DNA of 41,887 nucleotides, from positions 1 to 41,887 of IMG/VR virus record IMGVR_UViG_3300046675_000122; one strand, 5' to 3'. The number at the start of each line of letters is the position of its first letter. Position 1 is the first letter of the stretch. Of this stretch, positions 35,904 through 41,248 are shown piece after piece. The position numbers were made by a program, and so were the translations under genes. The notes under the pieces are model-generated. The model did not search any database. It saw nothing but the letters and a program-made list of their open reading frames with translations, and was not told the origin of the DNA. This DNA is from a virus.

Positions 35904-37121
35904 TTAGATCGACACTTCGCCCGGCGGTCGGTAGCCGTCCTTCAGACTAATCAAGTGCGCTCTCGTCCAGCATACATCCATTCCATTTTTCCCGGTCGTG
36001 TACAGCCGGGCAGCCTGAAAACGCACCGGGGTATCGATGTACATAGCCCAGCGCCGATCGGTGTAATAGAGCCAACTGTTCTCGTTCCAGAAGCTGACGT
36101 GGGTCGGGTCCTGGAACGCTCCACGCCCATCGGTCGATGGGACTTGCGCGAAGATCCAGCCACCGGGAGCTAGGACGCGGTAGCACTCCTTCATCGTATG
36201 CAGAGGGCTCGGCAGATGCTCGAAGACGTCATAGGCGCGGATCACGCCTACCGACGAATCGGCAAAGGGCCAACGCTCAGCGAGATCGCACTTGATGTGT
36301 GCGTCTTTGCGATCGACCGTCTCGAAGCCTCTGTGCGCTCCGAAGCGCCCGCCAAGTTCGATGCAACGCAGCCCGTTGCGCTTCGCCCAGCACAGGGCCA
36401 TGTCCTCGGCGTAGACGTCGTGGAGGCGCAATGTGTTGCTCTGAATCTCCTGATTGTGCTTGAGCCAACTGTTCCCGCCATGCACGCGGTAAACGTAGAG
36501 CCCCTTGTCGATGTGGGCAAACTCCGTAGCCTGATACATCCGGCACATCAAGTCCTGATCATCCAGAACACGCATCTCTCTGGAGTAGCCGCCAACGCTC
36601 TCGTAGACGGATCGCCGAAAGGCCCGAAAGTGATTCGGCGCGTACCAGATCTTCGCAAGCGAGGCAGGTGTTGCGTCGAAGGTGATGGGCTCGTCGAGCA
36701 GCGACCCTGCGTACTCCGTTTCCCGGTACTTCCATCCGAACTCCTGTCCGAACCGATTGACCTTCTTGCCTTCGGCATCGCAGTGCAGCGCGTTGGAGTA
36801 AACGAAGCCGATGCGCTCGTCGGCGAATGCTGCCTTGCAATCGGCGACTGCGGTCGGCATCAGGAGATCGTCGTGGTCGAGTTCGAACAGGATCTCACCA
36901 CGCGCCCGCTCGCAAGCCATTGCCTTGAGCGGCCCGACGTATTCCGGCGCCTTGTATACGACGTGCGAATGCACGCGATCGTCGGAGAACTCGATCGGTA
37001 CGCCGCCGTTGTTGTAGACGATCTCCCACTCCCAATCGGGATCGGTCTGCGCTTTCAGGCTCTCGTACACCTTCGGCAGAAAGGTACTGTCGCACGACGG
37101 AGTGAAGATGGAGAACGTCAT
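35904..37121 (-). CDS. glycosyltransferase-methyltransferase fusion, 405 aa
   Basis: Residues 1-225 are a GT-A glycosyltransferase (family 2-like): SIFTPSCDSTFLPKVYESL at the start, GEILFELDHDDLL with the DxD-type LDHDD (81-85), and VLDDQDLMCRMY (186-196). Residues 250-345 are a class I SAM methyltransferase: RCIELGG as motif I, DVFEHLP (298-304) and YRVLAPGGW (314-322), as in Methyltransf_11. The pair could add a sugar and methylate it. The ATG overlaps the collagen-like stop (ATGA), tightly linking it to that gene. The likely substrate is the fibre protein, or host surface glycans; this is inference. Confidence 0.88.
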   Translation of the reverse strand: MTFSIFTPSCDSTFLPKVYESLKAQTDPDWEWEIVYNNGGVPIEFSDDRVHSHVVYKAPEYVGPLKAMACERARGEILFELDHDDLLMPTAVADCKAAFADERIGFVYSNALHCDAEGKKVNRFGQEFGWKYRETEYAGSLLDEPITFDATPASLAKIWYAPNHFRAFRRSVYESVGGYSREMRVLDDQDLMCRMYQATEFAHIDKGLYVYRVHGGNSWLKHNQEIQSNTLRLHDVYAEDMALCWAKRNGLRCIELGGRFGAHRGFETVDRKDAHIKCDLAERWPFADSSVGVIRAYDVFEHLPSPLHTMKECYRVLAPGGWIFAQVPSTDGRGAFQDPTHVSFWNENSWLYYTDRRWAMYIDTPVRFQAARLYTTGKNGMDVCWTRAHLISLKDGYRPPGEVSI

Positions 37122-38353
37122 GACGTCTTGGTGATCTTCAAGTAGCCTTGGTCGACACCCCATGCCTGCGACGCCTGCACGCCCTTGATCTGCACCCCGA
37201 TCACAGGCGAGCCGGAGCCCGGGACAGTGATGATTCCCTTGAGTTCCACCGTCTGCGACCCGGCGACCCGCTGTATCGGCAACGTGCCACTGCCCTGCGC
37301 GGTCTGCGCATAGGAAGCATCTCCGGTAGTGGTCTGGGCGCCGACGACGCGCCCGAATACCGTCGCACCGCCGACCGAGCACTGCACGCCGAATTGCGCG
37401 CCCTGAGTGCCCGCTGCCGGATGAGCGATCAGGACTGCTTGATATTCCCACTGCGAGCCTGTAGGCACGGTGAGGCCGGTGAAGACGTTAGTCACGGTCT
37501 GCGCCGCAGCGTTGGTCTGCGAACCCAATACCTGGAAGTTGACCTGATTCCCGAGTCCCGTCGTCCCTTGCGTACCCTGATTGCCTTGCGGGCCTTGCGA
37601 TCCATTCGATCCCGCGGCACCTTGGTCGCCCTTGGCGCCCTGTGCACCTGGACTCCCTTGCGCGCCGGGAGAGCCTTGGGCGCCAGGAGTGCCTGCCGTT
37701 CCCTGCGAACCCGGAGAACCCTGTGCACCAGGAGAACCTTGGGCTCCCGGACTTCCCTGCGCCCCCGGACTGCCGGTCGCTCCTTGTGTACCCTGATCGC
37801 CTTGCGCGCCAGGAGCGCCGGCGGTTCCTTGTGTTCCTTGACTGCCTTGCGCGCCTGTCGAACCAGCAGTTCCCTGCGTGCCCTGACTGCCTTGCGCACC
37901 GGGAGCTCCGGTGGCGCCTTGTGCGCCTTGATCTCCCTGAGCACCAGTGGTTCCGATAGCCCCTTGTGCACCCTGATCTCCTTGTGCTCCCGCGGCACCT
38001 GAAGTCCCCTGTGTTCCTTGTGTCCCTTGATCGCCCTGTGCACCCTGCGTTCCGGTGGTGCCAGTACTGCCCTGAGTGCCCTGCGTACCTTGAGTGCCTT
38101 GCGTCCCCTGCGAGCCCTGTGCGCCTGGACTTCCTGTCGCGCCCTGCACACCTTGCGGACCTTGCGCGCCACTTCCCGCTGCGCCTTGGGCGCCTTGATC
38201 TCCTTGCGGTCCCTGTGGCCCACCGAACGCGCCCTGCGCCCCTTGGGGGCCTTGCGGCCCCTGTGATCCGGGCACGTAAGGGACGCCGTTGATCGTGTCG
38301 ACGAAGAGATCGCCGATACGTCCGGTTGCGACCTGCAGGCGGGTGCTTGCCAT
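37118..38353 (-). CDS. collagen-like fibre protein, 411 aa
   Basis: The N-terminal 28 residues form an attachment part. They are followed by about 79 Gly-X-Y triplets, residues 29 to about 268, rich in GAQ, GTQ and GDQ and containing many Thr (GTTGTQGAQGDQG). A few interruptions (GAFGGPQ, GSGAQG) break the triplets. The remaining 140 residues form a beta-rich C-terminal head (NVFTGLTVPTGSQWEYQAV, VELKGIITVPG). Such repeats make a collagen triple helix in phage side fibres. Hydroxylation of Pro is not expected, but Thr and Gln could be modified. Glycosyltransferase genes flank it on both sides. Confidence 0.92.
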   Translation of the reverse strand: MASTRLQVATGRIGDLFVDTINGVPYVPGSQGPQGPQGAQGAFGGPQGPQGDQGAQGAAGSGAQGPQGVQGATGSPGAQGSQGTQGTQGTQGTQGSTGTTGTQGAQGDQGTQGTQGTSGAAGAQGDQGAQGAIGTTGAQGDQGAQGATGAPGAQGSQGTQGTAGSTGAQGSQGTQGTAGAPGAQGDQGTQGATGSPGAQGSPGAQGSPGAQGSPGSQGTAGTPGAQGSPGAQGSPGAQGAKGDQGAAGSNGSQGPQGNQGTQGTTGLGNQVNFQVLGSQTNAAAQTVTNVFTGLTVPTGSQWEYQAVLIAHPAAGTQGAQFGVQCSVGGATVFGRVVGAQTTTGDASYAQTAQGSGTLPIQRVAGSQTVELKGIITVPGSGSPVIGVQIKGVQASQAWGVDQGYLKITKTS

Positions 38354-39043
38354 CTACGCAACTCTCGATACCTTCCACTCGGTTGTCACCCCGGTAACGG
38401 CAGGCGCCGGAGCTTCCTTCCACGTATAGACGTGATGCCCGAAGTGCCCGAGATGCCTGCTCGCGGTGTGGTCGACCAATACCTTGAATCCCGCCTCCCG
38501 CACGCGCTGGCAGAACGGATTGTCCTCCGTCGAGATTTCCTTCTGCGCCTCGTCGTAATAGGGCAGGAACCACGGGCGCGGCACCTTATCGAACACCTGC
38601 GCTTCGATCAGGCAAAAGCCGAATCCCGTGTACCACGCTTCCTCCATCGCAACCGAGTTCTCGCCCGTGTGCATCATCCCCGAGCGGTCGGCCTTCGTCG
38701 CCGTGAACTCGAATGGCGTCTGCCGCTTCGGGTAGTTGCAGGCGACGTAGGGCAGTCGGCGGGAGAGCAGCATCTCCATCAGGTTCGGGTTGAACACCAT
38801 GTCGTCGTCGATGAAGAGGACGTGCGTGCAGCCCCATCGCATCGCGCCGTTGACCAGTTCCTCCCGGTTGTTCGGGATGTTGCTCGACTGGCGAATGAAC
38901 ATCCTGATGTCAAAGCCGGACGCTTCCGAGCGCGAGCGCAGCACCTGCGAGCACATCATCATCTCGGCCAGCGACTGCGCGAAGAAGATCGGGACGTAGC
39001 CCGCCGATGGGATACAGACGGCAACGCGGATTTTCTCGCTCAT
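38354..39043 (-). CDS. GT-A-type glycosyltransferase, 229 aa
   Basis: Contains VAVCIPSAGYVPIFFAQSL at the start and THVLFIDDDMVFNPNLMEMLL, where FIDDDM (77-82) is the metal-binding DxD motif of GT-A enzymes. NNREELV (58-64) and EDNPFCQRVREAG are also typical. Enzymes of this type transfer sugars onto proteins or glycans. The gene precedes the collagen-like fibre gene by one base and is itself preceded by a 54-aa protein (ATGA overlap). Substrate unknown; the neighbouring fibre is the obvious candidate. Confidence 0.87.
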   Translation of the reverse strand: MSEKIRVAVCIPSAGYVPIFFAQSLAEMMMCSQVLRSRSEASGFDIRMFIRQSSNIPNNREELVNGAMRWGCTHVLFIDDDMVFNPNLMEMLLSRRLPYVACNYPKRQTPFEFTATKADRSGMMHTGENSVAMEEAWYTGFGFCLIEAQVFDKVPRPWFLPYYDEAQKEISTEDNPFCQRVREAGFKVLVDHTASRHLGHFGHHVYTWKEAPAPAVTGVTTEWKVSRVA

Positions 39044-39230: not shown

Positions 39231-40463
39231 TTATGCTACTCGCCGCGCAAAGGGTGATCCGACGGGCGTCTGCGCGGTGATGCCCGTGAAGTGTCCTGCG
39301 GCCAGGATGTCGTAGAGCGCGAGCATCGACTTCTGGCCGAAGTCGGCGGCAACCGTGAGGTTCTTGGTGTAACTGTCGTTGAACTCATGCACCTCGGAGA
39401 GTTGCGCAACCGGAGCTCCTGTCGTCGTGCCATTCACCGCCCAGTAGGTCGTGGCACCCACCGGGATGCTGGTGATGAGCGCCACGCCAAGCCTTGCGTT
39501 GATCGCCGGTTGCCAGAAGGCATCGAGCGCGCTCCCCTGCCCCGTGTAGTAGCCGCCCGGCGGGTCGGACGATGTGTGGTTGCCATCGAGAACGTGCCAG
39601 TCCATGAAGATGCCGCACTCTCCAAAAGAGAGTTCCCGCGTCAGGACCGTTCGCGGCTTCGTTACCGTCTCGAAGAGATTGGTCGTGTCCGAGAAGTGGC
39701 GGTTGAGGTCGTTGTTCGTTCCCGCCGTCACTTGGAACTGCGCGCGGCAGTGACCGCCGTCCCGGCCGGGAGCATTGACCAGAGGCAGGATGACCCAGTT
39801 GAAGGCGTTGCGGAGAGCGATGGCTTCGGCGTCCCCGCCACATAGCCACTCGATCGCCTTGCGGAAGCAGGTCGTCGCCCAACACTCCCCCGCGTGGACG
39901 CCGGAGATGAGTCCCGCGGTTTTCTTGCCGATGCGCCCCGTCTGGATCTTGAAGCCGTAGAGCGGATAAGACGCGACCGTTCGTCCCAGCTCGTCCGTCT
40001 GCGTCGAGTAGGTGTCGACGATAAAGTTGGAGCCGCCCTGCAACTGCTGGATGTAGGGCAGATGGGCAACGGTATTGGTGAGCCAGTCGGTGATGACGTC
40101 GTAGCCTTCGAGCATCTCGCGCGCGAACCAGACGTCGTTCTGGGCGAAGGGCGCGGTCGGCTGGCAGGTGACGATGCCGCCCGTGTGCGAGACAAGCTGC
40201 GCCGGGAACCAGGAGAGGCCGTCGTAGGAGAAGAATCCCGTCTCGTTCGCATTCCACGGGTGGATGAGGGCCGCGTCCGAGAACTTGAACTGCGGGGTGA
40301 GCCCGTTCACTCCAGACGCCTTGATGGCCGGGGTCTGCGAGTTCGGCCCGTTGCCCTCGTAGATCGTTGTTCTCGGGACGAGCGTAATCACGCTACCCGC
40401 GACCGAGGACGACGGGTCGGCGCTGTTGCAATGCCCCTGCGAAGTGTCGAGGGTAATCGCCAT
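39231..40463 (-). CDS. M14 zinc-carboxypeptidase-like virion protein, 410 aa
   Basis: The first 110 residues are a beta-rich attachment domain (SVITLVPRTTIYEG, FFSYDGLSWFPAQL). The rest carries M14 metallopeptidase hallmarks: SGVHAGECWA with HxxE (H190, E193), NDLNRHF with the substrate-binding NR (254-255), FMDWHVLDG with H290, and VHEFNDSY with E360 as candidate catalytic Glu. M14 enzymes remove C-terminal or peptidoglycan-peptide residues using zinc. Encoded amid fibre genes, it may digest host surface peptide or peptidoglycan during entry. The start is fixed by the ATG at 40463, which overlaps the LamG-like stop by one base (TGATG). Confidence 0.82.
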   Translation of the reverse strand: MAITLDTSQGHCNSADPSSSVAGSVITLVPRTTIYEGNGPNSQTPAIKASGVNGLTPQFKFSDAALIHPWNANETGFFSYDGLSWFPAQLVSHTGGIVTCQPTAPFAQNDVWFAREMLEGYDVITDWLTNTVAHLPYIQQLQGGSNFIVDTYSTQTDELGRTVASYPLYGFKIQTGRIGKKTAGLISGVHAGECWATTCFRKAIEWLCGGDAEAIALRNAFNWVILPLVNAPGRDGGHCRAQFQVTAGTNNDLNRHFSDTTNLFETVTKPRTVLTRELSFGECGIFMDWHVLDGNHTSSDPPGGYYTGQGSALDAFWQPAINARLGVALITSIPVGATTYWAVNGTTTGAPVAQLSEVHEFNDSYTKNLTVAADFGQKSMLALYDILAAGHFTGITAQTPVGSPFARRVA

Positions 40464-41248
40464 CAGCCAAGCAGTGCGCCGTAGGGGCGATTGAGGGATG
40501 CCGCCGGAGCCGACGGCGTGAACGCATGGGCGAAACGCACCATTTGCCGCCTGAACGGGGACGGAAACGGCGAGGAAACGCCCTGCACTACGGCGGTTGC
40601 GGTAGTCAGCAGCAGATGGTTCTGGCTCCAGTCACGGCCGTTCGCCCAGTCGAGGGTGATGAGCCCCGGTGCGACACTCTGCGGACCGAAATTGAGGGCG
40701 CGGGCGAACTCGTCGGCGGTCAGGATGCGGCTCCATCGGGTAATGCGAAAGAGGTAGCCGAAGAAGTTGCGCGCGACCCCACCCGTCCTGCCGCCGATGA
40801 CCGATGGTTGGTTGGTCGATAGATTGATCGAGCCTGTTCCGTTCGTGGCAGTCCCATCGTTGGTCGCCAGACCACCGGCATTGATCGACAAATAGTTGTG
40901 AATGTTGGTGGCCGTCACGCTGCCGTCCCAACTCGAGCACCACGTATAGAAATTCCCCGTCGCCAGGGCAACCGTCCCGGCACGCGATGGCTGCGTCGCA
41001 GTTGCGCTGTCCGCTCCGAAGGCCCCAAATCCGCCGCCCAGAGCATAGTTGACGCGGATACCGTTCGCTGCCGACGAGGAGCAGTTGGAGAACAGATACT
41101 GATTGTTGGCGCCGTTGGTGCCTGTAGGCGTGAACTGCACGAAGATGCTCTGCTCGCCGAGCACCATGCACGGGTTTGCCGCGATCTCCATCTGCTGCGA
41201 GACGCCGTCGTGGAACGACGAGATGACGGGTACGGGCTGGCGGATCAT
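40463..41248 (-). CDS. LamG/concanavalin-like virion protein, 261 aa
   Basis: Beta-rich protein with the pattern of a LamG/concanavalin A-like sandwich: SIFVQFTPTG, the glycine-rich NYALGGGFGAFG, NFYTWCSSWDGS, GGRTGGVARNFFGYLFRITRWSRILTADEF in parts (FFGYLFRITRWSR) and a WANGRDWS end. The FGYLFRITRWSRILTADE segment corresponds to the conserved strand of this fold. It probably binds carbohydrate as a fibre tip or adsorption factor. The start at 41248 lies upstream of an HNH gene in this version, while the left-edge allele at 282 is directly preceded by the 177-aa gene. Confidence 0.82.
   Translation of the reverse strand: MIRQPVPVISSFHDGVSQQMEIAANPCMVLGEQSIFVQFTPTGTNGANNQYLFSNCSSSAANGIRVNYALGGGFGAFGADSATATQPSRAGTVALATGNFYTWCSSWDGSVTATNIHNYLSINAGGLATNDGTATNGTGSINLSTNQPSVIGGRTGGVARNFFGYLFRITRWSRILTADEFARALNFGPQSVAPGLITLDWANGRDWSQNHLLLTTATAVVQGVSSPFPSPFRRQMVRFAHAFTPSAPAASLNRPYGALLG

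Follow-up and report, generated by a model that had tools for sequence, protein, structure and literature searches.

A gene for a collagen-like fibre lies directly upstream of a gene for a glycosyltransferase (GT) fused to a methyltransferase, together named GTMT, in a linear virus record from IMG/VR (IMGVR_UViG_3300046675_000122, 41,887 nucleotides), the whole of which is referred to here as the window. This pairing is conserved, recurring in phages and in bacteria of several phyla, and glutamine (Gln) is nearly always the commonest residue at position Y of the Gly-X-Y triplets in the collagens concerned. GTMT probably modifies the collagen, with Gly-X-Gln as the determinant; an acceptor role for Gln itself is plausible, though short of probable.

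Pairing of GTMT with collagen-like genes

In a first scan, made with the GTMT sequence only (41–68% identity), a collagen open reading frame (ORF) adjoined GTMT in all 14 non-self viral loci listed. A profile scan returned at least 80 viral and at least 80 bacterial GTMT loci. Figures from the scans cover the matches listed, the loci numbering at least those given; loci were clustered at 85% identity into clusters that are not fully independent, and many of the viral records are fragments. The flanking DNA examined included collagen in 32 of the 60 viral clusters and 30 of the 38 bacterial ones, GTMT and collagen sharing a strand in nearly every case; the collagen lay upstream in 49 clusters, several of them with an overlapping ATGA. 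A tblastn search with the window collagen itself, run under a low-complexity filter, gave no matches in phages. With its own ATGA overlap, and with Gln as the commonest residue at Y, the window fits this GTMT–collagen unit. In a quick family tree, every major clade includes members linked to collagen.

The association is also seen at the scale of whole bacterial genomes. All 20 GTMT-bearing genomes searched contained a single GTMT and one or more PF01391 (collagen) proteins, and the two lay within 6 kb of one another in 17, against a chance expectation of 0.27; this expectation assumes four collagen loci per genome, and the 17 were counted by eye from two tables. Among 121 Streptomycetaceae, PF01391 proteins were found in all eight genomes with GTMT and in 61 of the 113 others (p 0.009). 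A census of the Mucilaginibacter family, with GTMT in 1 of 151 genomes, serves as no replicate of this test.

Both halves of the enzyme are well defined. The window GTMT scores above cut-off for PF00535 (26.1 bits, cut-off 23.3) and PF08241 (40.5 bits, cut-off 21.2; E 4.5e-10, residues 276–324), in agreement with the two-domain GT–methyltransferase of the initial annotation. In an alignment of 70 relatives, 40–68% identical to the window GTMT, these domains were found in 70 and 68 sequences, respectively, and D82, D84, D85, D188, D270 and D338-P339 are invariant. Methyltransferase motif I, canonically GxGxG, reads LGG in this family, with the invariant D270 in the next strand. The AlphaFold2 model is of very high confidence (predicted local distance difference test, pLDDT, 96.4; predicted template modelling score, pTM, 0.93), and structures matched by its GT part (residues 1–245) include K4CP chondroitin polymerase (Z 23.4), WrtF, SpsA and TarP/TarS. 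The retention of both domains across the family argues for a joint importance of the two activities.

The same annotation had placed three closely joined ORFs at 35904-39043 and described a fibre of about 79 Gly-X-Y triplets rich in Thr and Gln; the ORF and junction check, which puts all three on the minus strand, and exact counting bear this out. The triplets fall in runs of 6, 5 and 68 (6+5+68 = 79), and the longest of these is not a chance run (log10 P ~ -40, the protein's own Gly content allowed for). The fibre matches PF01391 with E 4.3e-35 and 119.7 bits (cut-off 27.2), the family being above cut-off at four in-frame places in the window, and it also matches PHROG tail-fibre families. 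Gln occupies 59% of the Y positions of the stalk, followed by Pro (14%) and Thr (10%); X is mainly Ala, Thr or Ser, with Thr at 24%. At the collagen rise of about 0.29 nm per residue, the 79 triplets would give a stalk of about 68 nm.

The C-terminal 151 residues (261–411) were modelled by AlphaFold2 from 4 sequences (pLDDT 68.5, pTM 0.70), and the resulting head matches the C-terminal domain (CTD) of Chlamydia Pgp3 (Z 11.0), the tumour necrosis factor (TNF)-like lectin BC2L-C (Z 9.8; Foldseek E 1.6e-5), the BclA CTD (Z 9.2, root-mean-square deviation 2.5, 109 aligned) and C1q (Z 8.4). A lollipop of the BclA/C1q kind is thus predicted for the fibre, and its head may bind the host or a sugar. 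As this head sequence was seen in only three other loci, a common head domain was rejected as the GTMT determinant, leaving the repeat alone as the part common to the partners.

The gene upstream of the fibre, a GT-A-like enzyme termed GT1, does not share in this conservation. It matches PF13641 weakly (E 0.03) and falls in phrog_1574 (E 9e-21), a family without stated function. No collagen ORF was present in the flanking DNA examined around its phage relatives (24–40% identical; 0 of 21 non-self loci), and no GT1-like gene was matched at other GTMT loci. The initial annotation had envisaged a phage cassette that builds and decorates its own collagen. Of this the collagen–GTMT pair stands as a conserved genomic partnership that recurs in other phages, and for the pair such a cassette is the best reading. 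GT1, with collagen-free relatives, which that annotation had itself named as grounds for refutation, drops out and was rejected as a conserved collagen enzyme; as far as conservation tells it appears to be a bystander, and it may act on a virion protein in the window phage. Nor is the pair specific to phages, since it is also found in Streptomyces, Frankia, Planctomycetaceae, Mucilaginibacter, Thiothrix and others, the bacterial hosts of GTMT further including Kitasatospora, Micromonospora, Agromyces and Chlorobiales.

Glutamine at position Y and the proposed modification

Position Y was scored in 68 GTMT clusters with a collagen of at least 25 triplets. Gln outnumbers every other residue at Y in 66 of them, against 23 of 104 control viral collagens (Fisher p 5e-25), the controls having been drawn by a composition-neutral DNA pattern that required 16 consecutive triplets, and the partners differently. 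Over the 68 clusters the median Gln content at Y is 64% (range 26–93). A separate count gave medians of 65% for viral partners, 56% for bacterial partners and 12% for 119 controls (p 3.6e-15, viral partners against controls), and the published averages are 13.0% for viruses and 18.4% for Gram-positive bacteria (PMC3368898 Table 4). At X, the median in partner collagens is 0%.

Besides Gly, Gln alone occurs in every partner collagen. Thr is under 3% in 9 of the 68 clusters, and Thr and Ser together fall to 0–5% over X and Y in five partners (L189, L151, L089, L120 and L178). Thr, Ser, Asn and Lys were each rejected as a universal acceptor, being nearly missing from some partner collagens. The analogy with BclA and its Thr-linked sugars, drawn in the initial annotation, is not supported for the acceptor, given the same five collagens, which like all the others carry Gln at Y.

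Unlinked collagens in GTMT phages (seven records) have 56–95% Gln at Y. S-CRM01, a cultured GTMT-bearing cyanophage isolated on Synechococcus LC16, fits the pattern with its two long collagens: Gln fills 82 of the 135 Y positions in one and 40 of the 60 in the other. In GTMT-bearing Streptomyces, distant collagen-like repeats have 0–6% Gln at Y, against 46–88% for the adjacent collagens of the group, which makes a by-product of base composition unlikely; most collagen-like repeats of GTMT-free Streptomycetaceae likewise have 0–6%. The sole GTMT match among 120 control loci (L298) is at a locus with 75% Gln at Y. Gln-Y viral collagens are also found in records without GTMT (L216, L286, L306, L309, L239, L268 and L277), and the proposition that every Gln-rich collagen has a GTMT was rejected on such GTMT-free records, mostly fragments.

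From these observations a scheme can be proposed, in which collagen and GTMT would form a dedicated unit of a fibre and its own decorating enzyme. The fibre would stand on the virion as a trimeric lollipop, with an N-terminal cap, the long stalk and a TNF/C1q/BclA-like head. The GT2 domain would move a sugar from a nucleotide-sugar donor onto the nascent or unfolded collagen chain, and the fused methyltransferase would then O-methylate that sugar. Substrate recognition would run through Gly-X-Gln, the Y side chain (Gln, ~47 sites in the window fibre) being the likeliest acceptor or recognition element. Y is the glycosylated position in other collagens, those of giant viruses included, as hydroxylysine in animals and as Thr in Bacillus, and by analogy Gln at Y is a natural candidate acceptor. 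More speculatively, GTMT may found a Gln-directed type of collagen modification, with the sugar placed on Gln at Y (on hydroxy-Gln where a DUF6445 protein is present) and capped by the methyltransferase. This would imply a repeat-wide coat of Gln-linked, O-methylated glycans on phage fibres and bacterial surface collagens, and separate enzymes serving Thr-, Ser- and Gln-type collagens.

The alternative that survives best, though we consider it unlikely, is that GTMT acts in a BclA-like manner, glycosylating Thr or Ser of the collagen and methylating the sugar, with Gln at Y merely stabilising the triple helix. Counted over X and Y, Thr amounts to ~34% and Ser to ~23% per triplet in the window fibre, Thr is the usual Y residue of bacterial collagens, and the collagen region of BclA is glycosylated (PMC8968730). 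However, the partner collagens almost devoid of Thr and Ser contradict such an acceptor, and the Thr-Y collagens of the control sample had no GTMT.

A second, rather unlikely, alternative is that a DUF6445 (PF20043) protein first hydroxylates a collagen side chain and GTMT then glycosylates the hydroxyl. DUF6445 proteins keep the HxD...H and R of 2-oxoglutarate-Fe(II) oxygenases, and their gene lies directly against GTMT in 17 of the 98 clusters (for example L029 9205-9774, L072 5371-5991 and L201 2839-3825); moreover, a separate scan seeded with DUF6445 found a GTMT-family GT in 51 of the 79 loci listed, some of them GT-only (L449 and L452-L459 included). The gene is missing, however, from the window and from the vicinity of GTMT in 80 of the 98 clusters, so such an oxygenase is not obligatory unless encoded elsewhere. 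DUF6445 is named nowhere in the literature searched, subscription papers lying outside it.

The GT-only relatives L452-L459 have the same kind of GT domain without this methyltransferase, and score 140–159 bits against at least 400 for full-length members. L452 (3067-11188) has a gene for a GT-only protein of 598 amino acids between two collagen-like genes of the Ser-Y type (Ser at 60% and 74% of Y), with DUF6445 adjacent, and the collagen of L453 has mixed Thr and Gln at Y. These few loci hint at a link between the kind of enzyme and the Y residue, possibly an enzyme-to-Y-residue code. Among other neighbours, large fused proteins combining a methyltransferase and/or GT2 with DUF6445 lie directly upstream of GTMT on viral contigs (L103 1233-3551 and L104 2915-5329), and a TPR-repeat protein with a lipoprotein-like N-terminus lies near GTMT in 12 bacterial loci (for example L144 1215-1811).

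It is quite improbable that GTMT acts on a host surface polysaccharide, in O-chain masking or superinfection exclusion, and adjoins fibres because host-interaction genes cluster. GTs that marine myophages encode in their hypervariable tail-fibre region are usually interpreted in this way (PMC7029224), and one GTMT subclade (L064-L105) lies beside other glycan-type genes, mostly without adjacent collagen; but such an action leaves unexplained the close pairing and co-occurrence in bacteria (17/20 genomes), as well as the Gln common to Y even in unlinked collagens of the same phage. Direct methylation of the Gln side chain, in the manner of PrmC on GGQ and with the GT acting elsewhere, is very improbable: Gln is indeed the residue common to the partners and the methyltransferase is fused to the GT, but its domain belongs to the Methyltransf_11 type, which Pfam does not recognise as PrmC-like, and the constant GT fusion would go unexplained.

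Several points weigh against collagen modification by GTMT as proposed here. Genomic linkage does not identify a substrate, and 28 of the 60 viral clusters lack collagen in the flanking DNA examined; of 30 collagen-less viral GTMT records (up to 109 kb), 23 had no collagen when searched whole, which suggests that some members may act on something else. Two bacterial clusters (L126 and L139) have Thr above Gln at Y, and ten control viral collagens with at least 50% Gln at Y come from records, mostly fragments, without GTMT. To these may be added the medium confidence of the head model, built on 4 sequences, and the lack of a DUF6445-type oxygenase gene in the window.

Comparison with known systems

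BclA of Bacillus anthracis/cereus is a surface fibre with a collagen stalk and a C-terminal TNF/C1q-like head, as is predicted for the window fibre, and the glycans of BclA carry O-methylated sugars. Its repeat is Gly-X-Thr, whereas that of the window is Gly-X-Gln with Thr at 10% of Y. Also unlike BclA, the window has a single GT2–methyltransferase fusion encoded beside the fibre, from a family in which Thr cannot be the general acceptor.

Mimivirus L230, a collagen lysyl hydroxylase and glucosyltransferase, is a bifunctional viral enzyme acting on collagen-like proteins of the virus itself (PMC9614988), as is proposed for GTMT. The second domain is a hydroxylase in L230 but a methyltransferase in GTMT, the GT of L230 is GLT25D1-like whereas that of GTMT is of the GT2 family, and Lys is rare at Y in GTMT partners (median 0%). 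Neighbourhoods with both DUF6445 and GTMT resemble the hydroxylase-plus-GT logic of animals and L230. In outline the GTMT–collagen pair would work like BclA glycosylation or L230, but it is a member of neither, differing in the Y residue and the second domain, respectively.

Among phage proteins, EPclA from prophages of enterohaemorrhagic E. coli is likewise a phage-encoded collagen-like tail protein, trimeric as is predicted for the window fibre; recombinant EPclA is unglycosylated, has 14.5% Gln at Y, and has no reported association with GTMT (PMC3368898). Mycobacteriophage GTs also decorate the phages' own virion proteins (Freeman et al. 2023, as relayed in PMC11652166), the O-glycosylation described in that account being on capsid and tail proteins, not on a collagen fibre. 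A precedent in bacteria for hexose on protein Gln is provided by mycoplasma lipoproteins, where the modification is general, lacks sequence specificity, and involves neither a dedicated GTMT nor collagen (PMC4657876). In the literature searched, with the same scope as above, a GT–methyltransferase fusion is linked with collagen-like proteins nowhere.

If the proposal is true, it would supply a substrate for an enzyme family of phages and bacteria annotated so far only as 'glycosyl transferase' or 'methyltransferase', make Gly-X-Gln a sequence rule by which modified collagens of bacteria and viruses could be recognised, and suggest a way in which microbes that lack prolyl hydroxylase may stabilise their collagen fibres or disguise them. 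A glycan linked to Gln would be a chemistry new to collagen and would make the system categorically new, and the fused enzyme could serve in making glycosylated recombinant collagens. The proposal is open to direct test in cultured phage S-CRM01 and cultured Streptomyces.

Layout of the window and neighbouring genes

The window is a podovirus-like structural operon, mostly on the minus strand, in which family searches recognised a major head protein, a portal, a terminase, an SU10-type adaptor and tape-measure-like proteins. Over 56% of its length, the portal shares ~37% identity with its counterpart in Myxococcus phage Mx8. Within 35904-39043 (minus strand) the order is GT1, fibre, GTMT, and the coordinates are collected in the table below.

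Features of the collagen–GTMT region and its upstream neighbours (positions in the window)
Feature	Position	Strand	Remarks
Small ORF, 54 aa	39041..39205	-	Shares ATGA with GT1; no known family
GT1, GT-A-like, FIDDDM motif, phrog_1574, 229 aa, ATG start	38354..39043	-	Adjoins the pair, outside the conserved unit
Collagen-like fibre, 411 aa: 28-aa N-terminal cap, Gly-X-Y stalk, C-terminal head	37118..38353	-	
Gly-X-Y stalk, residues 29-268, Gln in 59% of Y positions	37550..38269	-	
C-terminal head, predicted TNF/C1q-like jelly-roll fold	37121..37549	-	AlphaFold2 model and structure matches
GTMT, GT2-type (GT-A) glycosyltransferase fused to class I S-adenosylmethionine (SAM) methyltransferase, 405 aa	35904..37121	-	
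GTMT GT domain, residues 1-245, DHDD metal-site motif (D82, D84, D85) and LDDQD motif (D188 invariant)	36387..37121	-	
GTMT methyltransferase domain, residues 250-405; invariant D270, E312, P328-S329, G334, D338-P339	35907..36374	-	

The junctions between the 54-aa ORF and GT1, and between the collagen gene and GTMT, are overlapping ATGA sequences, and at the GT1/collagen junction stop abuts start with zero gap (TAGATG). A second metagenome record (L006 1-6422) contains the locus again at 100% identity, beginning inside GT1 and running on to the structural genes downstream, so the gene order is no single-sample assembly artefact.

Just upstream in the structural operon is a zinc-carboxypeptidase-like protein (39231-40463, minus strand; PF00246 E 3e-9, HAGE motif), with zero relatives in the phage collection searched. 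It is preceded by a 261-aa protein (40463-41248, minus strand) that has a LamG-type lectin look by eye and no Pfam, PHROG or NCBIfam match. At the operon end, on the opposite strand, lies an HNH endonuclease (PF13392; 41284-41793, plus strand).

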